Shown here: positions 24,817 through 62,528 of the stretch, piece by piece | Position numbering within the stretch: position 1 is the stretch's first letter | Layout: each line of letters opens with the position of its first letter | The notes under the pieces: generated by a model | What the model was told of the DNA's origin: nothing | The model's input: the letters and a program-made list of their open reading frames with translations, nothing else | The model's database searches: none | Source: Hirudinaria manillensis | Lineage: Eukaryota; Annelida; Clitellata; Hirudinida; Hirudinidae | Length of the DNA stretch: 64,000 bases | Reading direction: 5' to 3' | NCBI GenBank assembly: GCA_034509925.1 | Contig: CM067538.1 | Coordinates: 4,247,501-4,311,500, forward strand | Position numbers and translations under genes: made by a program

Positions 24817-27800
24817 TCAACTGGAGTCCTCCTCAACGTCAGAGAAATCCAAATGGTCTTCGTGAGGTTCCTTCGAGAAGTCACTCGGCTCCACGGATTT
24901 GATTACCGACTTGATGCCAAAACTGAGGCATTCCTTGTTGAACTTCAGCGGCATGTTGCCCAAATCTCCGGCATATCGGTTCTTCGCTACCTGGAAAAAA
25001 GGATGAAGATTGATGGATAAAAACGCATGTAGGAGTTTGATTTAAATAAAAAAATTATAATATGCAATGTACAGATTTATGATTTTATCTGTAATTATTT
25101 CTCATCTCTTTCTAGTAAATAAACTAATTATGGCTCTATGTTCTTCATGTAGGGTCTAAATGGACTGAATTAGATTCAGAATTATATTAACAATTAAAGA
25201 TTATATTAATAATTTATACCTGAATGAATTTCTTTCCCCGTCCTGTAATGATTCCTGTGTTTTGGAGGATGAGAACATTGTCAGCCTCTTGAGTGGCCTT
25301 GGCACTCCCAAACACAGATGATAGCGTTAACAATTCTGTGGGCTCCTGCATTTAAATTGATAGCTTTAAAGTTTTATGACATATTTTGCAAGTCACATAC
25401 AATAATTTCTAAATGAATAATGTCTGTAATTACAGCAATTATACAATTGCATAATTAAAAACGTTACCTTTCGAGGATGGATGATTAAGGTGATATGACA
25501 ATTGGATTTAGTGGCAAATTTCCTAAAGGCACTGATGATTAGATCTTGTCTCAAGTATTTGTCAAAGTTCTTTGAATCACTGACACCCATCATAAATTGG
25601 AGGTTGTCGACTATGACGTGACCGATGTCGTGTACGTAAACGGCATGCGTCATAACCTGAGACAGAATTGGAATTCTCTTCAAACACCCGTAAACGTTAA
25701 ATTAAAAAGCAATCCCATGTCGGCTCACTCCGAACGACAGACCTACGAGTCTATCTGTTATGACACTACGATTATATGAATTCGAAACATCCTCACATCG
25801 ATGACTTTATCTATGCATTCTTCACCATGGAATGTCATGAAGTACATGGGCAGATCAGCAAGGCACTTGACAAAATGATCGAACTTGTCACTGTTGCTTG
25901 CCAAGTCGAGTCTTTAAAAAAAATTTAAGAAGAAATTGAGAAGATTAAGAAATTTAAGAAGATTTGACTCAGAAAAACTTCTATAATTTTTTGATTTAAA
26001 GTTCTATAATTTGCTAAATAGCAGTGAATATTTTGAAATCATGCCTAGGATAATAAAGTTTGAACTTACTGAGAATATTGAGCAAGCATAATCTCCATGA
26101 GACGAATATTGTTGATTTCAAAACTGCCCCACAACGTTTTTACCTGGAAGGAAATGTTGTCAGGATGTTTTGATAAGAACCTACTCAAAATTCCATAGAT
26201 TTTATCAGAAGGTTAGCGAAAGTTTGGGAGAAAACAAAATTAAATCGAGGAGTCTGCACTTGCGCACGTGCGTCTCACCCCTTGCATGGCCAGGTCGAGA
26301 GAATACTCGCTGACAAAGGTTGTCTTCCCGCAGCCAGTAGAACCGGTCAAGATGGTCAGTTCCCCTCTTCTATGACCCTTCAAGAGCTGGTTCAAGTGGG
26401 GGAATCTCTGCCACTGGAGATATTTTAAATATTAAAATGGTTTAGTACATCAAAAATAATATATAAAATACTTAAGAATAATATACTTAATAGCACTGAC
26501 TGGAGATCAACTTCTATAAAGACATGTAAACAACATTGAGGGTACTTCTTACAAGCTGGATTATATAATGTCATTGCTGTTCAAATTACAATGGACTGGG
26601 AATCTGTGATGATGAAATACAGAAAGTTACCTTGACACCAGCAGCTTCATCGGAATCATAAATTTTATTTCTCAATTCCTCAATTGAGTCGGAAATTGTC
26701 GTTATGCACTTGTGCTTCATAGAGACTGAAGAATCCAGTATTTTCTTGAGGTCCAAAGACTTTTTGAATGCTTCAAATGCCACAGGACGTGTTGCATCTG
26801 GTCTATTAAAATAAAATAAATAAGATAAAACATCTCCTTCATTAGCAATTAAAATGCATTAAAAAATATATTAAACATATGATTGTCCACAGTGAATCAC
26901 CTAATCAAGTAACATCTGGCCTCTCCCAATTTAACAGCAAAATGTTTGGTGTCGTCCCATCTGAAACTATCACCTCCCATCCACAATGTAATCTTTGAGA
27001 TGTGCTCAAGCAGAGGCAAAACCTGTAGTATTGAAATTGAAGCAAAAAATAAGTTTAATATCTTCAAAATGCTCCTGAAAGCAACATTGGGATCATAAAA
27101 CTCCATAAAATGGATGACCTCTTGAGGTAGGATTGGTTCATCTTTTGGAAGGCACATTGCAACTTTTCCAGTCTCTTGGAACACAATGAGAGCATCCAAC
27201 TCACTTGAGGTCAGTACAACATCGGTCGTTGTCGGTTGAACGAGGTTAAAACCAAACAATCCATGAAGATCCTCCCTTCAAAATGTTCAAATGAATGTCA
27301 TATTAAAACTATTATTTTAAAAAATAAACAAAAATTTTTTTAATTTTTAAGATATGATTATCATCATAACATCAAAGAAAAATAACTAAAAATTGTTAAG
27401 TTATTACATGGCTTTGACTAACGGCTTTTATAAATATTATAAATATTAACCACTTTTCAAAATTGTGTGATTTGTATGATCAATAGCACATCATATTCAA
27501 AATTACATCAAATATTCAATCAATTCCCAATAATAAAGTAATTACAATTAAAATCATTAAAAAGACAAACCCAGAATATAACTTGACATCAAATTTGTCT
27601 GAGCAAATGACATCTTCAATATCAGTTTTGGGAGGGTGTGAAATGACCTTCACACCTGTGACCTTATTTTTAAGACCAATCAGGGGGAAAAGGAGACCAG
27701 AGTAATCTCTTTTTACCCGCACCTGGTACTTTTCGAGGGTAGATAGTTTTATGCCCTGCAAAGATTGTAAAACAAGATTGACCAATGACCAATCTACAAT

Positions 27801-29336
27801 CAATTTATTGTCAAGTAAATAAAGCCACCATAAATTTGAATCTAAAGTCATTTTAAAACCAAATCAAAAGTATACCTCAGGCTTTAGATTGTACTAAATA
27901 TCAATTAGGTAAAGATTAAGTATGTTAAATATACTTTGTCAATGACTATGAGCAATATGTGACATGCAGGGTAATGTTCTTGTATGCAGACATAAAGACA
28001 ACAAGATGATATGTGTCATGTTTAACACCCAGAGATACAATGCCAGGGAGCACCATTGGGCGGGGGATCGGTTAGAAGTGCCTTCGAGACCCATAAAGGC
28101 ACTCAAAAGATTGGATAAATACACAAACATGTGCAAAACAAGACCAACTTCAGCATTAAAATCTTCAAGAAGAGACGACAGTTTCTCAGCTTCACAGGAA
28201 GTGACGGGAAGCGACTCCTCAAAAATGCTGCACGCCTCGTCATAGGACGGATCGTTCATGATACTTTTGATATCCTCGTCTTTATCAAAACATGATGGCA
28301 TCCTGAGATGATAAAATTTGGTGATAAAATTCTCTTAAAAGTAAAGACTGTTCTATGCATGAGATAATATCCTATTGGTGCCTATTTATAACTTCTTCCA
28401 CTATCTCATCCTAACTAACTACTCAAATGGCTTCATAAAGCATTTTATCCAATTGATGAAAACTAGTAATTAAAAAAAATCACAATAGGTTTCTATTAAA
28501 TTATATCAAAGTCATTAAATATTTGACTATAAAATGGATGAGTACAATTAAACATTGCAAGTAATACAGTATAGTAATATCGTGATGAATAATTATAAAA
28601 ATCTCAAAATAAAACTAAAATGTAAATGACCATTCACTCAAACCTTTTCTTGCATAGGTTATCATGGACTTTTAATGTATTCTCCTTAAACTTGCTCCAA
28701 GGTCCAGTCTTGAAGCAACTGTGGCAGGCAAAGTATCCTAATAACATGCAAATATTGCTAAGCAACAAATGTTCCTGAAGCTTAAAACTCTTTAAAAAAA
28801 TTCATTAAACAGAATTTGATTCTTCATTCCATTAAAAAATTGTAATTTTCCAAACTTATTTTTTAAGTCTTTTGAATCTCAAACCTAAAGCATATTATTG
28901 TAGCATATGCAGAAATATTTATTAAAGACTTTACAATTTACTCAAAATTAAAATGAAAAGTGATGATAAACCTGTGGTGGAATTGATGTAAAGTTTATCC
29001 AGCTTATCAAACTTGGTTTTACTCTTGGAGTTTCTCAAACATGTTGTCATAATGCAGGCATGTTTTTCTGAATGAACCATGTTCATTTGACCAAGAAATT
29101 CAAGAATTTCCTTTTTTGTTCTTCCTAAATCTTTGTACTTTTCTTTCTGCGTGAAAATGGCTCAAATTTAATCGTTATTCAACTGCATCCAAATTCCCTT
29201 GGCAGAAAATATAAACCTCCACAACATTGGTATCATCTGGGCGTGTTCCAAATCCTTGCTTTATTAAGTTACAAATTCTTGTAAGCCTGTTTGGTTTTTT
29301 TAGAAGTGTACTGCAGATTTGCGGTCTCGAGATCAT
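24817..29336 (-). CDS. TWNK: Twinkle, mitochondrial replicative DNA helicase
   Basis: Fourteen exons on the minus strand give 663 aa (human 684): 29217-29336, 28972-29146, 28644-28737, 28149-28302, 27567-27755, 27119-27271, 26901-27022, 26631-26802, 26279-26413, 26070-26143, 25797-25911, 25468-25656, 25220-25345, 24817-24990. Twinkle is the hexameric 5'-3' helicase that unwinds mtDNA ahead of POLG. The start ATG follows an in-frame TAG and opens a basic presequence with no acidic residue in its first 30 or so amino acids, as for matrix targeting. The N-terminal primase-like half has [11 protein letters not shown] and a toprim-like [12 protein letters not shown]. The RecA-like helicase core has Walker [20 protein letters not shown], Walker [22 protein letters not shown] and [16 protein letters not shown]. 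The acidic C-terminus ends EEDSS. The junction of the exons at 27567 and 27271 is the least certain: phase 0 works with donor GTCTTT, while a better donor 4 bases away would break the frame. Confidence 0.95.
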
Positions 29337-31008: not shown

Positions 31009-31883
31009 TTATTTAACATTTTCTTCATAATATTGTTCAATGGCTTTCATGTGTCGACTCAACAATCTTATGCGAGGCCTGGCAGACGCCAAGTGCTTCA
31101 CTGCCTCCTCAGGGGAGCATTTCAAAGTCTGAAAATTTAACGTCAATAAGAACTCCGATTAAATTACCATTCATAATGTTAACAACTTATATAAGTTGGA
31201 TAAAATAACATTAACTTCAAAAACGAAATATGTAAAAGATTTAAATAGCACCCATGAGCTATAGATTATAATGAGTCTTTGGAAATTACCTCAACAAGAT
31301 AGCAGGCAACTACAGTTGCACTCCTTGATCTGCCAGCTTTGCAATGCACATAAACAGAGTTTGGAGGCTTAGATTCTTTATATTTGAGAATGAAGTCAAC
31401 TCCCTTCTTAATATTTTCATTGCTTGGAACTGAATTCCAATCTGGAGTAGCTAGCACAAGCTGTTCTATTCCAGCTTTTTTAAATTCCTATTTATTGATG
31501 CAAGAAATTATCAGTAGAATTCAACAATTAATATAATCACAATAACCAATTCACCAAGCATTACCTCAGGTGAATTCATAAACATTTCCGTCTCATGAGG
31601 TTCGTTCATGGTCACAACGCCTTTGACACCGATGTCCACCAGCTAAGAATCGAAAAACATTTATGTTAAAAGTAATCATTCCTGAATAATAAATTTCCTT
31701 CCTCACATCTTTTGTCATGGATTTAAAAGGCAAAGCCCCCAAAATAACAACATCATCAACTCTGTTGTACCATTGAAACCTCAATAATTTTTGAAGGGCA
31801 ACATTATAAGCTAGAGAAGAGTAGAAATAAAGCTGAGCAAGATAACTCATGGCTAAGCTCTCCAAACGTTTAATTAGCAGCAA
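31009..31883 (-). CDS. PTPMT1: PTPMT1, mitochondrial phosphatidylglycerophosphate phosphatase
   Basis: Four minus-strand exons (31707-31883, 31565-31642, 31290-31487, 31009-31128) join in phase 0 to 190 aa; human PTPMT1 has 201. It is a dual-specificity-type phosphatase of the inner mitochondrial membrane that dephosphorylates phosphatidylglycerophosphate in cardiolipin synthesis. The P-loop HCKAGRSRSAT supplies the catalytic Cys and Arg of the CX5R motif. Flanking family motifs are WYNRVDDVVILGALPF, GVVTMNEPHET, AGIEQLVLATPDW and CSPEEAVKHL. The C-terminus stops about ten residues short of the human one. A second ATG 33 bases in (MSYLAQLYFYSS) aligns better with the family's N-terminus and may be the true start, giving 179 aa. 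Confidence 0.93.
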
Positions 31884-35964: not shown

Positions 35965-36045
35965 GTATTGGCGCCATTTTCGTTGCTATTCAAAAAGCGG
36001 AAGAACTCATAAAAAAAGCGCGTTAGAGGGATCGCGAGTACATGC
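35965..36045. promoter_or_regulatory. Promoter-like patch without an assigned gene
   Basis: Contains TTGGCGCCATTTTCG, which joins an E2F-like TTGGCGCC to a YY1-like GCCATTTT, followed by the ETS-like AGCGGAAGAAC and a CGCG. Such clusters mark TATA-less starts of housekeeping genes, but no ORF follows on either strand. It may drive a non-coding transcript or be chance. Confidence 0.2.
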
Positions 36046-37800: not shown

Positions 37801-40712
37801 ATGGTCGGATCAGTGAGGAGCGCGGGAGTTTTACTCCTTGTGTCACTCGCTTGGATATTTGTTGTCAACGCCAACATACTTGGATCAAGTAAGATTTCAA
37901 TTTCAAATTGCAATTTTCAAATTATTTTTGTGTGTGTGTACAAACAAAAGTCACCTTTGCATTTGTTTTAAAAGATGTTATTTACTGTTTGTTGAAAAAC
38001 ATGTCGTTATTACTCTACTCTTGCTATAACGAATTTGTGGCTCTCTGCTCTCAAAGACATGTCGATTTTCGTTGTTTTATTTATGTTTTTATTTATGTTT
38101 ATTGCCTGAAAATTAATTGATTAAATGATTACGAATGTAATGAATTTTAATTGATTTTTAATTTGTTTTTTTGGTTATAAAATGATTTAAAATTGAAGAT
38201 ATTTAAAAAAGTATCAAAACATTTACAGGTAACACAGAGGTGAGTGCCACAAACATGTCAAACAGACACGTTGTTTACGCATAATTCATACATTTTTACA
38301 ATTACTCATGAAACGTAAATAAACACGATTGTTTAATTTATTCCAATAATAAGATAATAAGTTCTCTGTTTGAAGTTTTAATTATTTTAGGCAAATATTT
38401 TCTTTTAAATTTAACGTTCATTCATTTTTAAACTATTTTTCAATTTACCAATTAGATAGAACATTTGATATGCTTGGCACCAAAAGGCCGCCTGCTCTTA
38501 ATGTTATCGGGATAGTTTAATAATGCATTAGTATTACTGACATAGATAGAACTAATTAATTAAGTAATCCATAATAATTAATTAACATTTACTAATTTAC
38601 TATATTAATAAGCATTGAAACACATTAAATTCCAAATGTTCTTTCGTATAAGGACAAAAATTTCTACGATCCAAATGAAATGCAAAGTGATCAAAACTCT
38701 GTGAGTATTTTGTGGTTAATAATTTATTTTTTTAATTGTTTTATTCCGTAATTAAATTGATTAAAATTTCTAAACGTTTTGCAAAACAGGGTTCACAAGG
38801 AGCTCGTGGGCCACCCGGACCCCCTGGACCACCAGTAAGATTTAATTGTTTTATTTATTTACCTCAAAATAAATAAATAAATAGATTCAATTGCGTGAGA
38901 CAGCCTGGATATTTAAGTGACTAAACATCTGCACAGTAATTCTTAAGTCTTGACATGCTCGGAACACGTATTTCCAAAATAGCTTTTCAAATGAAAAAGT
39001 GTCCCAACTTCAAAACTAAATCATCTTTTGTCCCATTTGCATTTACAAATTAATATTATTAGTCATTAATAAATTTCATGCGCTGATTAAATGATATACA
39101 AATTCGAGGCATCGGTTTGTCACCTTAATAACAATATCATCACAACAGAATAACATCAATTGATACAAGAAATTGATAACAACAATTGATAAACTGAAAT
39201 ATCTCCACTGACCTGTTATCTTATTATCTGTCAAATCATTTCTATCGAATTCAAAGTGCATTTGTTTAAAACTAGTTTAATTTGCTAAATAGACATTAAT
39301 CTAATCTTACATTGGCATTTCCCTTCCGTAATACTAATATTATTTGAGAAATACTTTTAAACATTTTAAACATTTTATATGTTTTATCATACAGGGTCCA
39401 GCTGGTTCAAATGGTCAAAGAGGAGAACAAGGAGAATCTGGTGTTGCTGTGAGTTTATTGAAGAAACTCTTTTCATTAATAATTCATAAAATAATCAGAT
39501 AAGATGTGTAATTAATTAAAAATAATTTATTAATATTTATTTATTTTCTCTTAAACTCGTAATAATTTCAACAAATTTCCAATATAGCCTAATTTTGCAT
39601 CAGAAGTTTCAACAGTTTATGACTAGTATACGTCTGAACTACAAAGAACTATAAACTTATTTGAATGCCCACCTTATCCTGTCATCGTCAACGATCTTCT
39701 TCTCCTTTTTCAGGGTGCACCGGGTGGAAGAGGACCACCAGGACCGCCAGGACTTCCAGGAAAAGAGGTTCGTTTGGCAGGTGTTCTCCAGGCATTGCAC
39801 GATGTTCACGTGACTTTTTTTCTCCACACTTCAGGGACCAGAGGGACGCGACGGGGATGTTGGTCCACCGGGTCTGACCGGACCGGCTGTGAGTTGAAAT
39901 GTTTCGGCGAATTGTACTTATTCCCTAAGCGCTGCTATTTCGTTGGTAAATTATAAAATTATAAATAGAAGTTAGATCAAATAAAAGATAATTGGTGCCT
40001 TTTGAAATGACAAAGCTGAGGGCTGTAACAGCATCTTTCGCATGAAACATGAACAAATGGTTAAGTTTAATAAGAGAAATAAATAAATAAATAATTAAGA
40101 GCAAGATTCATTAGAAATGTGATTAAAACTGACCCCATCTTCATTTGATCTCATTTAAAGGGTCAACCAGGTCTTCCCGGTACCCCCGGAGTTCCCGGGG
40201 CCAAAGGTTACAGGGTGAGTCTCATGAATTTAAGTATTTCTTACGAAGAAATGAATTTATTCATCTGTTTTGTTGCTAGAACCAAAGGACGAAATAACAA
40301 TGAAATAATAAAAGGGACGATGATATTATAAGGCTATAATATTACAAGGCTATAATAATATTATAAGAAATTCTTCTGAATTAGGAAGAAATATTATGGA
40401 AATATTATAAGATGTCTCTCAGTTAACAATTAAAGGTGGTAATTTATTGTTTACCATTAAAAATTATGTTTGTTTCATTTTATGTTTGCATTTATTTACA
40501 CTTTACATTTATGTATCCAATTTTTAACGTGCTCGATTTTATCCCAAAGGAATGTAAGGGCACCGACAAACGAACCATCAGACACACGATAGCAAACTAG
40601 CAGCTAATAAATAAATAAAATGAAAGGAAATTAAAGAATAACATTAAGACTAAAATGAATATCTAGGAGGGAATGAGAAATTTGATAAAAAATAAACGCC
40701 GTTTAGTTTGAA

Positions 40713-40793
<81 letters not shown>

Positions 40794-43700
40794 AACAAGT
40801 TAAACCTATGATTGCAAAAATGATTAAATCTCAATCAGGGATACCCCGGAGCAAACGGAGCTAAGGGAGATGTTGGCAAAGATGGAGAGAGGGTAAGACT
40901 AAATGAAGAAACGCAGCTCTTTGTTGTCTTCTAAACCTTGATCGTTGTCATCATCATCATCATCATCATTACCAGCATCATCTCTATCGTAATTATAATC
41001 GTCATCATCACCTCTTTCATGCCTGAAACCTTGAACAAAACATGTTAGTACTTGACACTGCAAGTTCTTATATATTTTCAAAATAACCATAATCATCGTC
41101 GTCGTCTTCATCGTCATTGTCATCATTATCATCATTATCGCCAATCCTTTCCATGACAGGGAAATCCAGGACCCCCTGGATCAGTCGGTGCTCCAGGAGT
41201 TTTGGTGAGAAATTAATTTTTATTGGCTGCTTTTATAAGCAAATGACTAAACTAAGGTTGTTGTTACTCGCCAGTTATTAATTATTGCAGTAATTTAATT
41301 AATTAATTTGTTTCATTTATTTAAATATTAAACTTGCAATTGTGACGCTCATAATTGTAAGCGTAACAAGTTAGAAAAAATTCTCAACATTAAGTTTCTC
41401 AACATTTAGATTCATGACGTTATTGAAATAACATTGAAATAAATTGTTTGTAATTTAATGATTATTGACATTAGTTGTTTAATTAATTAATTAATTAGGG
41501 ATTGAGAGGGCTGCCTGGAGAGAGAGGAAACGACGGAAGAGAGGGTCCAGTGGTAAGCATTAATGAATCTTTTTCGAAAGCATTACTGAATTTTATTTAA
41601 TTCTTAATGTTCTTGTTGATATTTTTTAAAAATTTAATAGAATGCCTTCTAATCGGTTTCTTTAAAATGTCCATAGGGTCTTAGAGGAGCCGACGGTCAG
41701 CCCGGTCCCCCCGGTGGTCAAGGTCTTGTGGGTCCATCGGGTGCTCCTGGTTTCCCAGGGTTGCCCGGTCTGAAGGTAGGTCCATGTCGACCTCTCATCG
41801 CACTGAGGCGTCATTAGTTTCCGTTTCTTTATTCAGGGAGATCAAGGTAGTGCTGGATCAGTTGGTGCCCCCGGAAGTGCTGGCCCAAGGGGACCCATTG
41901 GAGCACCAGGCGCACCGGGAGAGCCTGGCAGACCTGTTAGTTTGAAATGAATCAACTCTTAATTATAATTAGTTGTCGTGTACTAACCATTACTTTAACA
42001 TAATAACTGAATTAGTAAATAAATTTCACATTATTATTATAATAATATTATTAATATTGGAGTTTATTTCCAGGGATCTTCCGGTGTTGATGGAGTTCAA
42101 GGAGAAAGAGGAGACAGAGTATGACGTTGTTTCTCATAAATTCATTTTTTATATTTCTACAAAAAATACTAATTATAAAACTTATTGCTGTTACTTCATA
42201 TTTTTCCTTAATTTTTCTGAAATTATTATTACTATTTAAAGGTATTGGAATTAACTTGAAACCGATTCGTTTTCCAGGGAGATGCGGGAGCTACTGGTTC
42301 AGCCGGTGCCGTGGGAGCATCAGGACCAGCTGGATCTCCTGGAGTGCCAGGAGTTGCCGGACCCAAGGGAGACCTTGTGAGTGATGAATAAATAAAAAGA
42401 ATTAATTATTTTTTCTCGCTAATATCTCATAATTTGTTATTTAATTTGACTTTGGTTTATGTTAAGCATTTATTTTAGGATTTTAAATTTCAATTCAGTT
42501 TATTGTGCTGCAGTTAAAAAATGATAAATTAAAAAAAAAGTATAACATTTTCTTTAGTTTGATCAAATAAATCTTAAACCGAATCATATGCCAGAACGTT
42601 GATGGGTTTCTATACATAATACAAATAAATGAAATCGTTTGGAGCGATGAAATGTATTATAAAATAGGATAATGTGCTTCATTTCATGCCTTAGGGTGCC
42701 CCAGGAGCCCAAGGCTACCCAGGGGAGGTCGGACCAAGGGGCCAACCTGGACCCTCCGGTGAAGTTGGACCCTCTGGAAAACCCGGAGAGCCAGGAAAAA
42801 GGGTAATCTTTTGATAATTAATTTCTCTTAAATTATTTATTTATTCTGTCCAACCATGGAAACTTCTTTTTTTTGACGTGTGACCTTCATTCGTTGATTT
42901 TTGCCAGGGTGCCGTTGGCCCACCAGGTCCAGCAGGGCCAGCTGGATCACAGGGAGTTCCTGTAAGTTTTAAGTTTATTAAGGATGTAAAACATAAAAAC
43001 ATAATTTAATCTCATCAGTAATACTTTAGGGAGTCGTTGGAGAGCAAGGATTTCCTGGAAATCAGGGACCAGCTGGACCCACCGGACCTCCCGGACCAAG
43101 GGGTGAAGAAGGAAGTGCTGGAGAAGCTGGTCTGAAGGTAAGGAACCAACGTTCAAATCTGCATATGAATCTGATATTTAACGATCTAAAACTGCTTTAA
43201 AAAATAATTACATTCACAAATCTCGTTGAATCCTAAAATCAAACACAAATAATTGAAGCAACAAAATATTTGTTAAGAATTTAAAACATAATAACATGAT
43301 TTAATATGATCAATAACAAAATTGCTTTGGTAAAAAGTTGAAAATATGACTCTAATTTCAGGGAGACCCTGGTCTACCTGGACTTCCTGGAGTTCAGGGC
43401 CAAAGGGTAAGTTGGATGTTTTCAATCCTTAATGGGATTTGTAAATAATAATCATAAAATAAATTGGAAAGGTGAATATCAAATTCTAAAAAGCAAAAGT
43501 AAATCAATTGAAAATCAATTCTCCTTTACCAGGGACCCAATGGTGCAACTGGAAAGGATGGAAAACAAGGAAAAGATGGAGCACCTGTATGACTTTTGAC
43601 GCTATTTGACTGGACAAACGGATGCATGAATTGGTCAAACAAATTTGTAGGGTGCCAGAGGTAAAGACGGAAGACCAGGCGAACGAGGACTGCCAGGGCC

Positions 43701-46700
43701 GCAGGGAGCGCCAGGAGATGGTGGTGCCCCCGGAGACAAAGGAAGAGATGTCAGTAAATCAGAGAAATGATGTTTATTGGTCTTAAATTAGAATTAACGG
43801 TTGTTAAAATTGATAAATGAGAGCCTTCTGAAATTAATTAATAAAAACCTCCCTATGATATTAAAAAAGTAATCATTCAATGGCACGAGATATTTACACG
43901 CTAAGGGAGCATCAGGAAAAGATGGTGCGCAAGGCAGGGCTGGATCTGCAGGTGCCCCTGGAGATAGAGGAGACGATGGCGATGCCGGTGAGCCGGGTGC
44001 CGCAGGACCCCCAGTGAGTGATCACGGTATGATGAAGCTCTTGTTGTTTTGAGCCACTTCAATGAATGATGTTTTCAGGGACCCAGAGGAGAGAGAGGGC
44101 TGCCCGGAGAGAGAGGGGCCACCGGAGAAACTGTCAGTTTTGCTTTGATGAAAAGATGAATTCCAAGCTAGCTCAACAGTTTTTACTCCATACTTAACTC
44201 AATACTTAGGGTCTTCCAGGAAATGCAGGAGATCAAGGAGACGATGGACCTGGTGGAGTAGTTGGACCACCCGGCCCGCCTGGACCAGCAGGAGCACCTG
44301 GAGCTAAAGTCTGCATTTTTTAAAAATCTTTATATTCTATTTATACTTCATTTTATATTCTATTTTTTACCGTAAAACATTTTTAAGTATCTGACTGACA
44401 TAATTAAGTAATTTTTAACGTCTCCTTTTTAGGGACCGAGTGGACTTAAAGGCCCGTCCGGACCCAAAGGACCGAAGGGACCCTCTGGCGATAGAGGAAG
44501 CCCCGGACCAGAAGGACTACAAGGAGCTGAGGTTAAATGCCGATGAAGTGCCATGAGAATGCAGGCTCTGAATGATTACATGTTTACAAGGAAAAACTGA
44601 TGTTATTGAAAATTAAATTAATTAGACATTTATTTCGTGATTCAGGGCAAACCAGGAGAGACTGGTGAGAAGGGACCAAGAGGAGCCACTGGTCCAATCG
44701 TTAGTACTTGTAAATATTATCACTGTTTTTAGTTTTCATTGCTAACATTTAGACTTATTAGGTTTCAGTTTAACTGTCTAATTATTCGCTGAGATATTGA
44801 TGAGCTGATTTCTTTGCAATTAGGGTGCACCCGGTGACAAAGGTCCAAAAGGGGAACCAGGAGATGATGGACCGCAGGTTACTTAAATTTCATGGAATTC
44901 ATGAAACTTAACCTAAGAAATTCAATTAAAGTCCGCTGACAAAATTTATTGCTATTGTAGGGGTTGCGTGGACCGAGAGGTCGTCCCGGAGTTCCAGGAG
45001 TTGAGGGCGGTGCAGGAGAGAGAGGAGCTCAGGGTCTTTCCGGACCGCAAGGATTTGTTGCGCCCAAAGGAGAAGTCGGTGAGAAAGGTCCTGCGGGACC
45101 AAGAGGAGAGGCAGGTGATAGCGGACCCAAAGGATTCCCAGGTCTTAAAGGGCCACTCGGAAGCCCTGGTCTTGCTGTGAGTGACGAATCCTACTAAACT
45201 AGTTCAACTCCAAAAAAATCCAAAAATAATATCTTTCTATCCTATGCTCATATGACTTCCTTTTTTTTTAAATAAGGGAGCAGCAGGAGAACCAGGAGCC
45301 AAAGGAGGAGAGGGTGCACCTGGTCCACAGGTCTGAAACAGTTTGTTATTGTTTATTGATCAGTTCTTAATATTTGGCAATATTCTGAATATGCAAAACT
45401 TCCTGAATCGTTTCATCGCCAGTTTCTTTTTATTTCTCATGTTTGAGAGAAAATCACAACAACTTGGACAACCCAAAGTAGTTTATTGATCATTACATAA
45501 TTTCTCTATACCTAACTCGTTTTCATTCTTAATGAATATCATGTACAATATTAACAATATATAGATTATACCGTAATTTATTTTTATTGAAACCATTCCG
45601 ATCTCTCATCAGGGATTGCAAGGTACAAGGGGCGCTCAAGGTCCAAGAGGAGACCCAGGAGAGCCCGGAAAAGCAGGAAGAGTTGGAAGAGATGGATTGC
45701 CAGGTCAAACAGGTGCACCAGGAGAGGCCGGTCCTTCAGGCCACGTAGGACTTCCAGGTGGTGCTGGTGTGAAAGGGCCAGATGGACCCCCTGGAGCCAC
45801 GGGAGCTCAAGGAAAAGAGGGACAAAGGGTATGTTTGGACGATTAATTGTAATTGTTATTTGAGCGCTTCTTGCTGTATTCATCCGAAATTATCTGATCA
45901 ATGTATATCCATACGACAGGGAGAGCACGGTGAGCCAGGAGATGAAGGAAGACAAGGTGCTCCAGGAAAACTAGGTCACCCAGGACACGATGGAGCTAGA
46001 GGAGATAGAGGAGAACAAGGGGCCCCTGTAAGTTTTTGTTCAACTTGAATAAATCGCTTCACGGACCTTCTTCATCAGTCGATCAAACGTTTTAGGGTGA
46101 CGTTGGTCCCGACGGAGCCCCTGGACATAAAGGTGAACGTGGATTTACTGGTCTTCCCGGTGCTAGAGGAGAGCCAGGAGCAGCAGGAACGGCTGGTTCA
46201 AGGGTACGCTTTAAAATATCTTTTAATTATTCAACTATTGTGACAATTATAAAGTTATTATGTTTAATAATTAAGTCAGTTGCTGTTGATGGACATTTTG
46301 AATTCTTTGGTGATAAAGAATCTATCAATTTGGATCTACGATGGCATAGCTAGAATGTTATTGCTATTTCAATTAATTAAGCTCATAATATTTACTTAGG
46401 GCGAACCTGGCGCCCAAGGACCCGAGGGACCAAAAGGTGAAAGAGGTGCAAAGGGACCAGTTGGACTTCAAGGTGCACCTGGACACAGTGGAGAACAAGG
46501 ACCTGAGGTATATGGTTTATTATTACAAGCGTAAGATGGAGGGAAGATAAGAGACAGCAGTTGTAACGTGTTGTCTTCGCAACCCGTACTGCCTTCATAC
46601 TGCCACAAGATCCCTTGAGGAGCGTTATATAAATAGAAAAGCGCCTTTGAAGCTCTGCTTATGGCGCAATAATAAGTAAACTACATGTACATCTTATAAT

Positions 46701-49700
46701 AAACATTTAAGCATATTTCAACGCTAATTTAATTACTTTTGAATTCGTAAACATTTAATTTCTTAATCAGGGTGCACCTGGCAAAGACGGTCTACCCGGT
46801 GTCCAAGGCCACGCCGGAGAGAGGGGTCTCCCGGGTCCAGTGGGACCGGTTGGAGCACCAGGTACTTCAGGACCCCAAGTAAAAGATTTATTTAATGTTA
46901 ATTTAATTTCGGAATTTAATTTAGTCTCATCACTGTGTTATTGAAATTTAGGGCCAAAGGGGAGCACAGGGAGCTCAAGGTGCTCAGGGTGAACACGGTG
47001 ACGTCGTAAGTTTATGGAAAACTTTGTTGTGGAGAATGGCAAAGGTAAACAACGTAGCAATTGTTAATTTGATCTCCTTCTTCATCGCAGGGAGAGCCCG
47101 GAAACGTTGGATTCCAAGGCCCCGCCGGACCGGCTGGACCTGCTGTAAGAAATAACAATTTGAATTAATGGAAATAATAATTTAGTTCGTCAGCAATTCT
47201 TAATTATTAAACATTTAATAATTTGAAATTCAAAAGTAGCACATCCAAACATTAATTTTTTTTGATCGAAATGACAAATTGTACAATTTTTTATTCTTCA
47301 GGGAGCCGCTGGACACGCAGGTCTCAAAGGAGCCCGTGGAAGTAAGGGTGCTAAGGTAGGTGTATGAGTGAGTGGTGGACGATTTTACTTGAATGACCTT
47401 GCAACATTAATGAACAGGCAGATTTAACATGTATCATTAACTTTGATAAAATAATTCATATTTTAATCAATAGGTTTTTTTTTTGAAGATATATTTGGCC
47501 ACCTAAAATTGTTTGTAATTTTTTTGCCGTAATTGTTGACATTTATTGTAAAATTTAAAACTTTAAAATGCTATTCCACCTTGACTTCATTTTATTTACA
47601 GAACGTCTTATGATGAATTTGTAATTAAATCTAAATTTAAAATTATTTATTAAAACTTAAATAAATTCAATGGATTTATCTACACAGGGAGACAAAGGAT
47701 GGCCCGGTTTGGCCGGTCTTCTTGGACACGTTGGAGTTCAGGTAAAGATTTTAATTCATTCGTCTAAATTAATTATTTGATTAAGTGGAAGCCCATCAAA
47801 GTATTCTTGTTCTATTCTTGCGACATCTGCATTATTTCTAATTAATTAATTAATGGTTCCTAGGGTGACGTTGGAGTTCCCGGCCCTCCTGGTCCTACTG
47901 GTGGTGATGGAGAGAGGGTGAGTTGCTGGAAAATTGATTGATCAAACATCAATCATTGAGTTACAACAAATTGAAATTAGCGAAACAGTCGCTCCTTTGA
48001 ACTACTTTAATGCAGAGGAATTAAGCAGCACTAAATATACGATAACCATTTTAACAATTTTTTTTTAGAAATCATAACTTTTATCACATTTTTGTATAAA
48101 TAATATTCGATACTAATATTTATTATAATCAATATAATATCAATAATTATTTAAGTATCCATTATTAAATGCATCTTACAATCAAAATTCCAGGGTGAGA
48201 CTGGCCAAAGGGGACAACCAGGTCCATCTGGACACGACGGAGTTCCAGGACCGCCCGGAAAATCAGTGAGAAGGAAATTGTCCATTTGCACTTGAAGATG
48301 TTTCAATGAATTTTTCTTGTAGGGTCCTCAAGGATCAGCCGGTCAGCCAGGCAAAACTGTGAGTCATCATCATCATCATCATCTCTTCACTTTTTATCTA
48401 CTTGTATAATCGCTTTATTACAGCAGGTTTTGTTTTTTTTAAATTATTTTTATCAAATTTATTTGATAAATAAGCGATGTTTGTGAATTTCTGAGAATGC
48501 TGAAATATCGGCATATCAGTGATTTGATACCAAATTGAAAAACAACGTTCACCACTCCTTTTACTCAGGGACCCCAAGGACCCCCTGGGCCACCTGGACC
48601 ACCCGTTAGTCGTGATTGGTTGAATAAATTTTGAGCGATTAATTAAATGCATATTTCAATTTTATTATTTAATTATAAATTAATATCATAATTATAATAA
48701 TTAATCACTCCATCATAACAAAATGACTTTGACGACTTGACTTGAAATGACTTGACTTTGAACAGAATGCTAAAATGTTTGATTTTCTGCCGACAGGGAG
48801 CTCCAGCAGCTGCTCACTTCGATTATGGGGCTCAGTTCTTCCAAAGGCCAAAGGGACCTGACCCATACTTGGTACGAAATTAAGTGAATAAATTAATTGG
48901 CTAGTTATTTCTGTTGCTTGTTAGATTTAGATTTCTTATTCGTGCATTTAATAATTAACCGATGCCAATTGCAGGGTGACCAACCGGTCAGCTCCATTGA
49001 GCCTGCCAACTTCGAAGACTTCAAGGTTCCCATTTCGTAACCGAATTTGAACTTATTCGATTTCATGTTGTTGTCGCTTAATAATATGATATTCGCCTTA
49101 TAATTAACTTTGAGTCACTAATAATGGTTCATAAAGTAATATACCTTTATTACTTCTAAAGGTATAAATGATAAAATTTATAATTTGTTCCATTAGAGCA
49201 ATGAGAACTTGAGGAAGGTCCTAGATGACATGATCAACTCACCTCTCTTCACCAACGATGTTCTTGGAACACAAGAGGCACCTGCCAGGACTTGCAGGCA
49301 CCTCGCCAGAGCTCACCCTGAACTCCAGAGTGGTAAGCTAAATGTTATTAATTGATTTCAATAAATTGATTAGTTAAGTTAATCAATTAATACACTAATA
49401 TAATGAATTTTCTTTAGTTTTTAGGATTTTAGAATTGCATATTCTTAATGCAATGCTCGCATATATTTCTCATTATTCTGAAATCGTTCGTCCGAATTAT
49501 TTTTGTTGCTTGCATCATTATGATCGCATTTCGACATGTTTACGTATTAAAGGCTTAATTAATAGATTAAATAAGAATGGACCCTCAAGTGGTTCAACCA
49601 TAACTTTACTTCATCAGGCCTTTACTGGGTGGACCCCAACAGAGGAAGTCCCGTTGATGCCATCCAAGTCTTCTGCAACATGGAGACCAAAGAAACGTGT

Positions 49701-50713
49701 GTTCTCCCAAGTCCATCTGAGGTGAGAATCAATCTTTCTTCTTACACGATTTTGATTTATTAGTTAACTGATTAATTAATTTTTTACTTAATGTAGTAAT
49801 AAATTGCTTAATGAATTGTTGATATACCAGAAAATGTATAAGTCTCCTATACAGATAACAGTGATAAATGACGTTAAATTAAACAAATTCTTTCAAAAAT
49901 TGAAGAATCCAAGTCTTTGCATAAAATATTTATGTTGGTTGCAGTATGAAAAACAGAGCTATGGTGGGAGGACATGGTTCAGTGAAATGGACAAGGGATC
50001 TCTTGTGAGAATCTATTTATATTAATTTTTTATAATTAATTTTACATCTTTTTTTCCAATGTGATTTACTGTTATTTTGAATAATTTTATAAAATTTATG
50101 CAATACATTCTTTTATTATTTATCTTTCTTTGTCCTCAACAAGTAAGGTCTTTGAAAAAGTAAGCTTTGATTCCACTCGTTTTACATTTGTTTTACTACA
50201 ACTATAAAAACTGCTAGAGGGATAAATAAACTAAAAAACAAATAAATAAATAGATTCTGAAATGAGGTAATAATTGAAATAGCTCAGGTACAAGGCAGAG
50301 AAATCGCAGCTCTCCTTCTTGCAACTTCTGAGCAACTCAGCCAAGCAGACCGTTACCTACCACTGCAAAAACTCACTCGCATACCTCGACAACAACAACA
50401 GCGTCGAGAGAGCCGTTAAATTCCTGACCCACAACGAGAAAGTTATCTCTGCCTATACCAGAAACAACGGGTACACTGTCAGTCTTGACGAATGTCAGGT
50501 AAGGGGAAAAGGCGATTGGCTCGCTTCTTAAATTCGCTCGCTTTTATCAATAATTTCTCAATCCAGCAACGGTCGTCATCGTGGGCCAAGACTGTCTTTG
50601 AGTTCAACACAGACGACACCTTGCGTCTGCCAATCGAGGACGTTTCACCGGCCGACGTCGGCCACCCGAGCCAAGCTTTTGGCCTCCAAGTCGGACCAGT
50701 CTGCTTCCAATAG
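37801..50713 (+). CDS. Fibrillar (clade A-like) procollagen alpha chain
   Basis: Forty-nine exons encode 1319 aa. Exons 1-3 (37801-37888, an 11-base microexon 38229-38239, 38653-38700) give a signal peptide with core [13 protein letters not shown] and a 25-30 residue acidic linker; no VWC or TSPN N-propeptide is present. Exons 4-42 (38790-38834 to 48569-48604) are all phase 0, each beginning with a Gly codon, mostly 45, 54, 99 or 108 bp (two of 216, one of 72, two of 36). They encode 1008 Gly-X-Y residues, with one break (Ala for Gly at 45060-45062). Exons 43-49 (48797-48871, 48975-49025, 49197-49332, 49618-49721, 49945-50004, 50283-50498, 50567-50713) form the telopeptide and COLFI C-propeptide, with [41 protein letters not shown] and final VGPVCFQ. 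Chains trimerise through COLFI in the ER and form extracellular fibrils. Six C-propeptide cysteines are seen; the two that make interchain bonds in homotrimeric chains are absent. AATAAA lies at 50934 and 50990. Confidence 0.97.
40712..40792. repeat. (TTA)n microsatellite
   Basis: About 27 TTA units with one GTT, in the collagen intron before the exon at 40839. Confidence 0.95.
46608..46676 (+). mobile_element. LINE/SINE-type 3' tail in a collagen intron
   Basis: The tail has GCGCCTTTGAAGCTCTGC then TTATGGCGCAATAATAAG, closely paralleling the minus-strand 3' tail of the LINE at 18032-18106: the same GCGCC...GGCGC stem, same spacing and an (AAT)n end. It is inserted in the sense direction between the collagen exons ending at 46507 and starting at 46771. 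The 5' boundary is not clear; the sequence from 46508 may belong to the same element. Confidence 0.55.
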
Positions 50714-52716
50714 GTTCGACGACCACGCAACAGAGTCACTTGTAAAATTTTTTTCAGAATGCAAGGACTATTTTGTGATAACGCAAATTTTGGATAGTAC
50801 TGATCGATACATCAATTGATTAAATTAAGTAATTAATCGTAATTAATCAGAGAGCTAAGAAATCTTGGGGGGGTTCATAGGTCGTCGGAAGGAAGGTTTG
50901 TCGCGGGGTTTGAGTTGTTGTTGGCTTGGCGATAATAAAGTGGTTAAATGTGGGATTTGTCTGTCCTGTTGTCTGTCCTTCTGTAGTGGAATAAAGTTAT
51001 GAAAACCTTAGTTCCATATAATTTCAATATAATATATTAGATAGTAGTAAGCTTAATGTTTTAGCTCCAGTTATTCAATTGATAATTAAGATAAATAATA
51101 TCTGCTATTTAGACTAGGAATGGAATGAATCACTAGAATGTTTACTAAATATCTATTGAAGCCACATACATGCACGATCTCTGGTCATATTAATAGAAGC
51201 AATTGGCAACAATAAAAAATAATTATACTTATAACAATTATTATAATTACAATATAATAATAATTATTATTATAAGTAGTGTTTCAAATCCTATTTCAAG
51301 ATAAATAATTCTGAAAACGTCAACTTGTACGGGTACTTTAGGAAAACTAAGTACAAATATCAGATGAAAAGATTTTACAAAACATATTTCGGGTAGACGT
51401 AATTTTAATTTTAGTAATAATTCCCTACAATAATATAGAATAATAAATAATATATTAATGATCTGCATCATATTATCCATTTATTAAAAAATAAATTTTC
51501 TACTTTGGATAAACAATAGTTTAACATTAATTAATAACTTTAATAAATTAGAATTTAACCAAAAATATTATGGCTAAAAGTACTTTCTGAACGACCAAGT
51601 ACCAAGTAAATTATTATACCAATAACGTCATTTAATTTCCAAATCGATAAATTTAAATGTAAACCTTAGGAAATGACAAGCAACATTTAGCTATTTACAG
51701 TATAAATTAATAATATTAATAATAATATTGATTTTAATTAATGACATTATTATTCTTATTAATGGTGTTGCTGTCGTTTCGAAATTTTCCAATATTTTGA
51801 AATAAATTTAAAGAAAATTTAGATTAAAATCTAACAAATTGAAATCACGTAGCAAAGGAAATTTTAAAAACAGCATTCATCAAATCAATGAAAGCTTAAA
51901 AGCATTTTTTTAAAATCAATTTTTAGCACTTAATGACTTAGACCACACACAAGAATTCATGTGTAATGTTATTGGCTTCAAACATTTCTCACGACCTTGG
52001 CACCAGGGAAGCACAAATTTCATTGAAAACAAGAAATTTATCTGAATTATATGAATTTATTGAAATGAATTGATGAAAATCCATCCAACAAGGCGTTTAT
52101 TTGAAGTTGAAAATAACATTTGAAATTAAAAATTATTATTTAAAATTATTTAAATTTAAAAATACTTTTCTGTCAATAATTTTCTAAATGCTCACCGTTA
52201 TCAAAACTTACACGGAGTTTATTGTTTGATTGAAATCATTAAATCGAAATTCACGCATGAATAAACAGCGATTTAAATCGTAAATTGATAGCAAATGAAA
52301 TGTAAAAGCATTTTTAATTAATCGATTTAAAACGATTTCGACATTAAATTCGCTATTCCAAGGCTGGAATATTGAATTAATTATTCGTCAACATCTAATA
52401 CTTAAATGGACAACAGCCAGAAAAAAAAATGGATGAACGAGCGATAAAAGAAAATTTTTATTTTTTTGTTTGCAAATAACAAAAAACGTGTTTTTAATTT
52501 TAAAAGTTTAAAACGGAAACGCAATATTAAATAAGTCGTACTCTACGACGTACGAGCCATTAGTCGTATCTCGCTAATGCATGCACGATCGAAATGATTT
52601 GTTTACAAATGCACCGAATAAACTGTTTACAAAGATTATCAATTTCCATCAACTTGTTTACAGGACGTTTAGCGATAAGGAGGGCCCGTTATTGTCAGAT
52701 ATTCGACTATTCTGTG
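50714..52716. other. Convergent spacer between collagen and Hox genes
   Basis: Two kilobases of AT-rich DNA take in the 3' UTRs of both genes. Collagen polyadenylation signals lie at 50934 and 50990 (+), and a minus-strand AATAAA for the Hox gene at 52457-52462. No further gene, and no mobile element seen. Confidence 0.6.
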
Positions 52717-55547
52717 TCACATGGGATACTGAGTGGCACAATGATCTTGTTGGAAGTGATTCTCCATGTGCTGTTGGTACTGTGATTGGATTCCTTCGGC
52801 GTCGTAATAAAAGTACTGTTGTGGCTGCTGCTGTTGCTGCTGTTGTTGCTGTTGGTGATGATGATGTTGATGATGATGATGATGGTGGTGGGGGAAGAAG
52901 TTACACGATTGATGGAGGTCTTGCTGGATAGGAGCGTAATGAGGCGTCACCGATTCATTTCTCTGAAAGTAAAGTTGTTGCTGGAGAAAGTACTGCCTCT
53001 GGAAGTGCATCTTAGCGATGTTCTCCTGACTGTTTTCCTTCTTCCACTTCATCCGTCTGTTCTGGAACCAGATCTTGATCTGCCTCTCCGACAGTTTCAA
53101 CATCTGAGCGATTTCAACTCTTCTCCTCTTGGTGAGGTACCTGTTGAAGTGGAATTCCTTTTCCAATTCCAGAGTCTGTTGTCTCGAGTAGGAAGTTCTC
53201 AGTCTTTTGTTGTCGCTTGCATTCGTCGAACTGCCGTTCTTTTGCTGGCTATTCGAAGATTTTTCTGTTGGCATTAATTAATGAGATTAATTAAAGTAAT
53301 TGCCGGTCGCTCTTATTGTTGAATTAAGTTTAAGCAACAACTTTACCTTCAGAGAAATCACTAAATTCAATTATTAATTTAATAATTAATTACAAGTTTA
53401 TTTTCAATTTCTTTTTGATACCCCGTGTTTCTTGGGATTATGAAATAAATGAATGGAGTTAAAGGATATTTGGACAAATAATAATTATTTTTCTATTATT
53501 ATTATTATTTAATAATAACCTTAATTAAATAATAACTTTAACTATAACTATTCTACTATGTATGTATATAAATAATAATAATAACAACAATAAGACGAAT
53601 TTAGTAAAAAATGGGAAAAGCAGAACAAAAATGCCTTCAATAAATTTTGGGCTTTCATTCAATTTGGAGCTTTATTATTATTTACAAATTAAAATGACTT
53701 TAATGTCTTTTTTAAATTATTTTAAATGTTATTTAAATGTATTTAATTTAACTAAGATGCAAAGACATTCAGAAATTCCCAAACTCATGTAAGCAGTTAT
53801 TGACCTTAGCCAATCAAAACAAAGCCTGGGCTGCACTGAAAGTCACGATATCAATTGAAGAAATGAATATTATTATTTTTTTGTAATCATATCGTTATAA
53901 TTATTCATTTACATAAATTTAGCATTAACATTTAAATTTATGCATTATTTAATCAAACAAGGAGCACTTAGAACGACAAAAACCAAACCGTTTCGTATAA
54001 AACAAGTGCAAGAATATCAGAATGAATTTTAGCTTTATTTAAATATTAACCTGCATTTAAAACAAATAATCCTAATAAATAAATAATATTATTAATATTA
54101 ATAAATGATCATTATGAATAAGACGCTAGAGATATGTTTGATGCAAAGTGCAAAAGAAAATTATTCTGCGTTGAGGTTTTTATTTGGGAAATGAACATTT
54201 TATAAATTTTAAATTAGAAAATATTAAAAACATAATTAGGAGTTGTTTTGAATGACCTCAAATTAATTTCACAGCTTTAAAATTTATGGGATGACTTCCG
54301 TCATCATATGACATGCTCTTTGACGACAAGCGCTGACGACTGACGTTACTTTGAGACTTAACAGGTATTGTTATGTCACATACATTAAAGCGTATCAATC
54401 AAGGGCTTCGTTGTATGGTTAAAATTTATCTTTAATATTTTTTATTGATTATATATTATAAAATAAAGTAATTTAATAACCCTTAATGTATTAAATATTT
54501 TTTATTGATATTATATTTATGTTCATTCAGTATTATGTAGAATTATAATTCGAGGGATTTCTAAAATAAATAGTAAGAAATCCATTTTATTCGTGAATTA
54601 AAATATATTTATTAAGCTTAAAAATCAGATTTTGTTTCACCAATAAAGTTATTTATTTAAATTAACCATTACTACATAATTTTTTAATGTTTTTTTTGTT
54701 AAACTTTTGCTTGTAAAAATGAATCGAGCTAATCATTTCTAAACTGCCCACCTTGGCCATTTTGGTGCATCCTTTTCATCCACGGGTAGATACGACCCCC
54801 GTTCTTGATGTGTTTGTCAGCGTCTTTCTTGCTCGCATTTTTCTTTTCGCCTTTGACACCTTTTCCAATTTCATCTTTCAACTCGACACCTGCCATGAAA
54901 TTTGGATTTTCTGCGGTAACGGGACCATTGAGATTCGCAGGGTTTTCAGCAACGAATGTATGTTCTGTCACGTCACCTTCGTCGTTGTCCTCATCTTCCT
55001 CGTCGTCGTCATTGGTGGAGCAGTCCTTGTCGCAGCTCGAAATTTCATTGCCTTGAATCAGTTCCTCCGCTTGGCACGAATAATTGAACTTCAGCTGATC
55101 GTCGTTGAATACGATCGGAATGAACTTCTTGCTTTTGTTACTGCTTTCCAGCATGTTGTTAACCGTCGAAGGATTTGTTTTCTCGCAGAAATTGACGTTC
55201 GGAGTTGCTTGGAATTGTTGGTGCTGTTCTCGTTGTTGTTGTCTTAGAGTTTTTACAAAGTCTTCGTGGTTGAAATTTTCACTTAGATTTTGACCAATCG
55301 AGTCGTCCTGATAATGATCTTCGGACGGAGGTGGAAAAAGGCGATTGGAGCGACTGTCGAAGTTAGCTTCATTCCATTCCATCTGAGGATAAGCATGAAC
55401 CAAATATGAATTCGACTGCAGATGATGCAGCGATGGCAAAGGACAAGAGTTTGTTGCGGGTTTTAAGTCTGGAAAATTTTCTTCGAATTGTTTGAGGTCT
55501 TGAAGGATGGCTTTCAGGGTGCTTTCTTGTGTCGAAGCGGTTGACAT
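52717..55547 (-). CDS. Antennapedia-class Hox transcription factor, nearest Hox4/Hox5 (Dfd/Scr)
   Basis: Two minus-strand exons (54752-55547 and 52717-53264), split in phase 1, encode 447 aa. The hexapeptide [10 protein letters not shown] (YPWM at 254-257) binds the PBC cofactor Exd/Pbx, and a homeodomain fills 284-343 with Gln50 and the recognition helix [30 protein letters not shown] and LSERQ, together with YPWMKR, point to Hox4; [13 protein letters not shown] fits Hox4 or Hox5. Diverged positions are Lys in LTKRRR and QMLK where most have HALC or HTLG. The N-terminal half is acidic (a D/E run near residues 180-200), and the C-terminal half is rich in His and Gln (H7QH4 then Q10). The start is the first ATG in the frame. 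The intron lies between hexapeptide and homeodomain, as usual for Hox genes. Hox proteins set regional identity along the body axis. Confidence 0.95.
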
Positions 55548-61231: not shown

Positions 61232-61424
61232 TTGATTGCTTTTCATGTTATCCTGGAAAATTATTTAAGAAAAAAAATCAATCAATCTGGCCACACAAGG
61301 TGAGCGATATATTTTAATCAAGATTTTTTATTTTTTGCGAAATTCAAGATTTATTCAAAATTGACTTTCACGTTACGCGGTAACTAAAACGTGTCCATAG
61401 AAAGCACACAATGAAGTTGTTAAT

Positions 61425-61683
<259 letters not shown>

Positions 61684-61817
61684 TTGTGTTCACCTTTAAA
61701 GCGTTCGTTGTTCAATAATTTACAAACAACTTCCTTTGGAAACTTTTCGTCATCATGCGTTGCTTATCAATCAAATTGTTGTGAAGTTCAACTCAAAACA
61801 TTGATGAATTAATATTA

Positions 61818-61876
61818 ATAATAATGATGATGATGATAATAATAATAATAATCATAATCATAATCATAATAATAAT
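61818..61876. repeat. (TGA/TAA/TCA)n microsatellite
   Basis: Short compound trinucleotide tract with ATAATC repeats. Confidence 0.85.
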
Positions 61877-62085
61877 ACCATATTATGTATTTAAATTAGT
61901 GACGATCATTATAATTTATTAATCATAAATAATTTTATATTGAATAATATTGATAATTAATTATTGACATCATCGATTTCTTAAGTTCACGAAACGACTT
62001 TTGTTATCAGTTCAACTTTCTTCAGAATTTATGTCGACTGGCACTTTTAATCTTATGTCCTCGTCCCTGGCTGTGATGTATTCAA

Positions 62086-62087
62086 CG

Positions 62088-62140
<53 letters not shown>

Positions 62141-62204
62141 TGAATAATGATGATGATAATAATAATAATAATAATAATAACAATAAATAATAATAATGAT
62201 GATG

Positions 62205-62249
<45 letters not shown>

Positions 62250-62378
62250 TGAATAATGATGATGATAATAATAATAATAATAAGAACAATAAATAATAAT
62301 AATGATGATGATGATAATACTAATAATAATAATAATAATAATAACAATAAATAATAACAATGATGATGATGATAATAC

Positions 62379-62426
<48 letters not shown>

Positions 62427-62526: not shown

Positions 62527-62528
<2 letters not shown>

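Follow-up and report, generated by a model that had tools for sequence, protein, structure and literature searches.

A fibrillar collagen gene and a predicted Scr/Hox5-like gene lie tail to tail in the leech Hirudinaria manillensis, probably through secondary joining

Fibrillar collagen genes lie at megabase-scale distances from the HOX clusters of vertebrates. A related idea, that of a super-Hox cluster, unites Hox genes with En, Gbx, Mnx and Dlx; collagen is not known to be part of it, and En is common to it and to the second of the two leech collagen pairs described below. The vertebrate linkage was used in early genome duplication arguments, and a pre-vertebrate origin for it needs invertebrate evidence. 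In the sections available of the sources on vertebrate HOX paralogons, the collagens concerned are COL1A1, COL1A2, COL2A1 and COL3A1/COL5A2, so that clade A collagens sit on Hox-bearing chromosomes, as they may in the leech Hirudinaria manillensis; the vertebrate case is, however, one of long-range chromosome sharing, whereas in the leech one isolated Hox gene lies 2 kb from a collagen gene. For the clitellates Helobdella and Eisenia, the available excerpts describe duplicated and rearranged Hox genes, as in this leech, but mention no collagen neighbour. For Alvinella pompejana, the accessible text places the Hox cluster with DLX, MNX, GBX and EN on APscaff0012 and names APscaff0012.263.p1 as a classic interstitial collagen. 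This single scaffold number parallels the leech pairs of Hox and engrailed genes with collagens, although the Alvinella cluster (~1 Mb) is described as intact, its distance from the collagen is not given in that text, and the leech gene is isolated. We found no earlier report of contact between a Hox or engrailed gene and a collagen gene in an invertebrate in literature listings or in the available parts of PMC4595640, PMC2723086 and PMC8476170, a coverage that takes in few subscription papers and stops short of the main genome paper on Helobdella.

The window analysed here is a stretch of 64,000 nucleotides from H. manillensis chromosome C13 (contig CM067538.1, positions 4,247,501 to 4,311,500); its features are collected in Table 1.

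Table 1. Features of the collagen–Hox region (positions within the window)
Feature	Position	Strand	Basis
Upstream neighbour, mitochondrial helicase candidate	25396..28334	-	AAA_25 E=1.4e-8 for 25396-25701
Upstream neighbour, dual-specificity phosphatase	31269..31883	-	DSPc E=5.3e-10 for 31269-31487
Fibrillar collagen gene, signal-like peptide to stop	37801..50713	+	Start, helix, COLFI, scores
Gly-X-Y triple helix, ~336 triplets, exon sizes multiples of 9 bp	38790..48604	+	38 modelled exons and one by hand
COLFI C-propeptide exons, aligned extent, up to stop codon	49266..50713	+	Spliced alignment and Pfam
Inter-stop stretch, 2.0 kb, no recognised gene, RNA family or gap	50714..52716	.	ORF, Pfam, Rfam and N checks
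Hox exon 2, homeodomain	52717..53264	-	Acceptor picked among script-listed choices
Hox exon 1, ATG 55547, YPWM motif	54752..55547	-	

The helix of fibrillar collagens is a long, near-uninterrupted Gly-X-Y repeat of ~338 triplets, and the window gene combines a helix of this kind with a C-terminal COLFI domain. Its ATG (37801) is the start of what was judged by eye to be a signal-like peptide. The 38 modelled helix exons measure 36, 45, 54, 72, 99, 108 or 216 bp and encode 312 triplets; a further 216-bp stretch outside the script model (44961-45176) was counted by hand and contributes 24 triplets, one of which lacks glycine (APK, 45060-45068). Five COLFI exons align to the COL1A1 C-propeptide in a spliced alignment with an approximate query sequence, one exon matches Pfam COLFI with E=2.1e-17, and the stop codon marks the end of the domain.

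The Hox gene encodes both a YPWM motif (IYPWMKRMH, exon 1) and an Antp-type homeodomain (E=5.1e-22, exon 2); among seven splice choices listed by the script, the one chosen gives a protein of 448 aa. Its best PDB match is Drosophila Scr (E=3.3e-28). The homeodomain is identical at 49/60 positions to those of Scr, HOXA5 and a leech copy on C9, and at 48/60 to those of Antp and HOXB4. In a poorly resolved tree it groups with the copies on C4, C12 and C10 (support 71-80), the C9 copy standing apart. Judged from these comparisons, the gene is probably Scr/Hox5-like and one of five such copies in the genome.

The collagen gene (stop 50713) and the two-exon Hox gene (stop 52717) are convergent. Three open reading frames of at least 50 aa lie wholly between the two stop codons, none with a Pfam match at E 0.01; Rfam at gathering scores gave no match anywhere in the window, and the window contains no N characters. 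Together with both gene models, these results bear out the claim of an earlier note that the two genes are directly adjacent, 2.0 kb apart, with no gene between them. A join made in assembly between 50.7 and 52.7 kb found no support and is extremely improbable, because the window is free of N and the published matching assembly comprises 34 PacBio HiFi contigs for 149.59 Mb. Upstream of the collagen lie a phosphatase gene, presumably PTPMT1-like (by eye), of which the piece at 31596-31883 has no Pfam match, and a helicase candidate that we take, on the same footing, to be Twinkle-like, of which the pieces at 26589-26858, 26900-27277 and 27942-28334 have none above the cut-off.

Typing of 139 homeobox places across the genome gave 18 Hox matches, spread over 6 of 13 chromosomes. 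The search for further Hox genes along the chromosome, proposed in the earlier note, did find them, the closest being 2.5 Mb away, and the window gene does not lie among other Hox genes. The C4 Scr-like copy is 3 kb from a Lox5-like homeodomain, Lox5 being the ancestral neighbour. The Scr-like copies on C4, C10 and C12 have no COLFI match on the same chromosome, and the C9 copy has a COL5/11-like one 0.7 Mb away. The microRNA mir-10, sought as a landmark for the surroundings of Scr, had no match in the window or the genome, in a search that cannot show absence. According to the available text on Capitella, Scr lies inside a Hox cluster without interspersed non-Hox genes, and clitellate genomes are described, again in sources seen in part, as wholly rearranged relative to bilaterian linkage groups. 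Because Capitella Scr sits in a cluster free of non-Hox genes and leech genomes are scrambled, the direct contact is unlikely to be an ancestral state. The proposal that it represents the tightest form of an ancestral linkage is thus unsupported for the contact itself, also in view of the five Scr/Hox5-like copies; the alternative proposal, a secondary break of the Hox cluster, gains support from the dispersal of the Hox matches.

We consider it probable that the contact consists of two ordinary genes joined secondarily, most likely when leech ancestors broke up the Hox cluster. In this reading the collagen gene encodes a secreted, fibril-forming procollagen chain and the Hox gene a transcription factor, probably of Scr/Hox5 type. 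Hox genes multiplied in the clitellate lineage and their cluster fragmented, in this genome over six chromosomes or more. A single Scr-like copy came to lie 2 kb from a fibrillar collagen gene that points towards it, presumably by rearrangement or via loss of intervening genes, and the contact would have no function of its own. The opposite view, that enhancers linked to the Hox gene took control of the collagen and that selection preserved the arrangement, has the 2.0 kb distance and the open reading frames as its sole favourable points and appears very improbable, since the tail-to-tail orientation leaves no common promoter.

The genome contains six fibrillar collagens (COLFI genes), four of them COL1A1-like. 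The window collagen scores 376 against COL1A1 vs 279 against COL5A1, 294 against COL11A1 and 239 against COL27A1 (human rows approximate). With the same human rows, a tree without COL27A1 sets the four leech chains with COL1A1 and COL2A1 against the COL5/11-like rows (support 58), and a tree including COL27A1 splits the four (92) from all five human rows, COL1A1 and COL2A1 included; on sequence comparison, membership of clade A is weakly founded. Several clade A collagens carry a VWC domain in the N-propeptide. The C2 collagen has one (Pfam, E=2.7e-10), and around the start of the window collagen none was seen by eye in a three-frame translation of 34400-38900. As for homeobox neighbours, the gene at C2:4.378 Mb has engrailed nearby, POU and HMX lie less than 70 kb from the one at C6:5.905 Mb, with NK1 ~245 kb off, the COL5/11-like gene at C9:0.602 Mb has a Hox gene 0.5 Mb distant, and for the genes at C1:8.694 Mb and C6:4.949 Mb no homeobox match falls inside 0.2 Mb. 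On these neighbours, block duplication of the Hox–collagen pair as a general rule was rejected; in the COLFI tree the four COL1A1-like chains have long terminal branches (0.44-0.73) and therefore give no sign of recent block duplication.

The C2 collagen lies ~3.4 kb from one of two engrailed genes, with its 5′ end towards engrailed; on C13 the collagen 3′ end faces the Hox gene. Chance was assessed in this one genome by placing the collagens at random, with proximity defined as 20 kb. The probability that at least one of six falls near one of the 18 Hox matches is 0.026, a generous value because the window pair was picked for looking odd. That close pairs are meaningless, occurring occasionally where 139 homeobox places and six fibrillar collagens are spread over a scrambled genome, is a real possibility, somewhat short of an even chance: at least one of six would lie near any homeobox with P=0.19, and the first pair was chosen for its striking look. 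For the second pair alone, the other five collagens give P=0.02 (Hox plus En) to 0.16 (any homeobox), the latter again compatible with chance, and 0.003 for En alone (approximate C11 length). Against chance, two of six would lie near any homeobox with P of just 0.017. The engrailed–collagen pair also exceeds the expectation from random scrambling (two pairs near Hox plus En, P=0.0004, with gene sets fixed after the fact), an observation that counts against the joining of two ordinary genes.

The break may have used material already linked on an ancestral Hox chromosome. A clade A collagen might have lain on the Hox/engrailed chromosome of the annelid ancestor, clitellate duplication and fractionation leaving Scr–collagen on C13 and engrailed–collagen on C2 as intervening genes were lost; we regard this as possible but doubtful. 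It is a special case of secondary joining, with a derived contact and an ancient linkage, and differs in the origin of the partners. The shared Alvinella scaffold number, obtained by joining two statements from the text available, speaks for it, as do lamprey and gnathostome clade A collagens, which remain linked to hox in the sections accessible, the closeness of the engrailed pair with its low random probability for En alone, and the probability of 0.010 that two Hox-bearing chromosomes each carry En and a COL1A1-like collagen. The weak footing of clade A membership and the differing layouts of the two pairs argue against it. So does the chromosome-level residue, which is not significant: 7/11 En, Dlx, Mnx, Gbx, Evx and Mox genes lie on Hox-bearing chromosomes (P=0.16; Gbx, Mox, one of three Dlx and one of three Evx lie elsewhere), and 2/4 COL1A1-like collagens do (P=0.60, no excess). 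Linkage at this level had looked promising with part of the homeoboxes named and lost significance over all 139 places. The wider proposition, in which the collagen already belonged to a Hox–engrailed neighbourhood of the bilaterian ancestor and the leech keeps two close relics, seems unlikely to us; where a genome is scrambled, proximity does not prove age. With the scaffold number shared in Alvinella and the leech pairs on C13 and C2, the question of linkage is answerable from public annelid assemblies.

Three further genes, neurabin, sarcoglycan and PDK, are neighbours of COL1A genes in human. Neurabin lies on C7, away from the C13 and C2 collagens, which also argues against a common ancestral chromosome. 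The Sarcoglycan_2 profile had no match in the genome, in a search that cannot show absence. PDK-type matches, which are not decisive, occur on C2, C13, C3, C5 and C12, those on C2 and C13 ~2 Mb from the collagens.

The fibrillar collagen and Hox genes that the earlier note described as neighbours are indeed adjacent. Both look intact and ordinary, and they converge tail to tail with 2.0 kb between their stops. None of the three ORFs of at least 50 aa wholly within this stretch gave a Pfam match; the 64-kb window has no Rfam match and contains no N. The collagen helix comprises 38 modelled Gly-X-Y exons, each a multiple of 9 bp (312 triplets), and a further 216-bp stretch, added to the model by hand, with a single Gly-less triplet (APK, window 45060–45068) in an otherwise regular helix. 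This gene encodes a procollagen chain, a family whose members trimerise via the C-propeptide; the Hox gene encodes a homeodomain factor. Since the two genes converge, they have no common promoter. Their contact is expected to have no function of its own. Elsewhere in the window, the ORFs at 21926–23068 and 18110–21255 look, on inspection by eye, like parts of mobile elements, one of them carrying DUF7083 (E=2e-20); a stretch near 19.9–20.2 kb is repeated, and long low-complexity tracts (61371–62571) are open in several frames of both strands.

Collagen, engrailed and Hox features of the leech genome (C1–C13, chromosomes)
Feature	Location	Strand	Basis
Fibrillar collagen	window, ATG 37801 to end 50713	+	signal-like peptide, Gly-X-Y exons, COLFI domain last
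Hox gene	window, ATG 55547 to stop 52717	-	two exons, YPWM + homeodomain
Collagen	C2, COLFI matches 4377.8–4379.2 kb, ATG 4391.3 kb	-	VWC E=2.7e-10, signal-like peptide
Engrailed	C2, homeodomain exon stop at 4394.7 kb	same as collagen	engrailed C-terminal signature
lab, Dfd, Lox2, Post2	C2		homeodomain
lab, Scr, Lox5	C4		homeodomain
Post2, Lox4, Lox2, Scr	C9		homeodomain
Lox4, Scr, Hox3-like piece	C10		homeodomain
Scr	C12		homeodomain
Window gene, two partial homeodomains	C13, partials at 6.79 and 6.82 Mb		homeodomain

The window spans C13:4247501–4311500. The genome analysed totals 148,429,096 bases in 23 contigs, the 13 largest adding up to 147.42 Mb (C1 14.76 Mb, C6 11.46 Mb, C13 8.30 Mb). 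The paper on the Hirudinaria manillensis assembly gives 148.59 Mb, 22 scaffolds and N50 11.46 Mb plus a mitochondrial genome, with n=13 chromosomes of 14.76–8.30 Mb totalling 147.43 Mb (PMC10671345); that on Hirudo verbana likewise gives n=13, with 177.8 Mb (PMC12820476). A genome-wide homeobox search yielded 151 matches, 150 of them listed; collapsing 11 listed matches in two multi-homeobox places left 139 places, all of which were read, some being unlike any reference and left unnamed. Hox names rest on homeodomain letters alone, compared with reference sequences. The C13 partial homeodomains were counted as two because their sequences differ across the overlap. On C10, Hox3-like and Evx homeodomain pieces (4696166 and 4705381) lie 9 kb apart, 2.3 Mb from the remaining Hox matches there. 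Nine homeodomain matches at C2:13032133–13041363, mostly spaced by ~940 bp and eight equal in score, may form a tandem array whose repeated unit carries a homeobox.

The top PDB match of the window homeodomain is Drosophila Scr; as identity is 49/60 to Scr and HOXA5 and 48/60 to Antp and HOXB4, its Scr/Hox5-like assignment, made on sequence, is not sharp. Five Scr/Hox5-like genes occur among the homeobox matches listed (C4, C9, C10, C12, C13), and in a homeodomain tree the window copy joins those of C4, C12 and C10 at support 71–80, with the C9 copy apart. The C4 copy has a Lox5-like homeodomain 3 kb away; together with a second lab-like piece, these lie inside 35 kb (C4:5707377–5741792), a small surviving Hox cluster fragment.

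In Capitella, Scr is reported as an inner gene of a cluster without interspersed non-Hox genes (PMC2603591). Scrambled genomes are reported for clitellates, the group to which the leech belongs (PMC11371463). Given this, and because the leech carries further Scr/Hox5-like copies besides the one in the window, the direct contact is probably not old; the suggestion that it represents the tightest form of an ancestral linkage is thus unsupported for the contact itself. The alternative of a secondary break of the Hox cluster is favoured, the 18 Hox matches among those listed being spread over 6 of 13 chromosomes.

Hox–collagen linkage on a larger scale is perhaps old, as Alvinella and lamprey suggest. 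We take the Alvinella interstitial collagen AAC35289 to be clade A. The genome report describes Alvinella, whose assembly has 17 pseudo-chromosomes, as an annelid in which synteny is conserved, places the Hox cluster, DLX, MNX, GBX and EN on APscaff0012, and gives AAC35289 as a truncated version of APscaff0012.263.p1 (PMC12403961); the common scaffold number would put cluster and collagen on one chromosome. In lamprey, clade A collagens are likewise reported to remain linked to hox (PMC8887668).

A second pair came up, unsought, in the genome-wide lists: at C2:4377798–4403451 a VWC-bearing fibrillar collagen lies ~3.4 kb downstream of engrailed (En), on the same strand. The engrailed C-terminal signature has two genome-wide matches, on C2 and C13. 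The first engrailed exon on C2 was named by eye, a Pfam search giving no match. None of six ORFs of at least 65 aa between the two genes reached the Pfam cut-off; one had a weak HCO3_cotransp match (E=0.0054, 15.9 bits against 27). A genome-wide profile search found six COLFI genes. Those at C6:4.949 Mb and C9:0.602 Mb pair at support 98 and score higher to COL11A1 than to COL1A1, the C9 gene by a slight edge (336 against 331). The other four (C13 window, C2, C6:5.905 Mb, C1) score distinctly higher to COL1A1 (376–482, against 316 at most), and were therefore labelled COL1A1-like. Their membership of clade A is not settled: human COL1A1 and COL2A1 fall outside them in a tree with COL27A1, and a tree without it permits the grouping at support 58. 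C2 and C13 each carry engrailed and a COL1A1-like collagen. Pyruvate dehydrogenase kinase-type matches occur at C2:2184155, C13:2003788 and C3:8817107, the first two ~2 Mb from the COL1A1-like collagens there.

Whether both pairs are left over from one ancestral Hox–engrailed–collagen chromosome is the testable part of the question. Of the En, Dlx, Mnx, Gbx, Evx and Mox genes among the homeobox matches listed, 7/11 lie on Hox-bearing chromosomes (P=0.16), and 2/4 COL1A1-like collagens do so (P=0.60); there is thus no clear genome-wide residue of old linkage, and the case for it in the leech is carried by the two close pairs alone. In random-placement tests (20-kb proximity, 6 collagens), with gene sets fixed after the fact, P was 0.026 for one collagen near a Hox match and 0.0004 for two near Hox or En; for one of the other five it was 0.024 (Hox or En), 0.035 (Hox, En or nine related genes), 0.16 (any homeobox) and 0.003 (En alone, run with an approximate C11 length). 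For two Hox-bearing chromosomes each carrying En and a COL1A1-like collagen, P=0.010.
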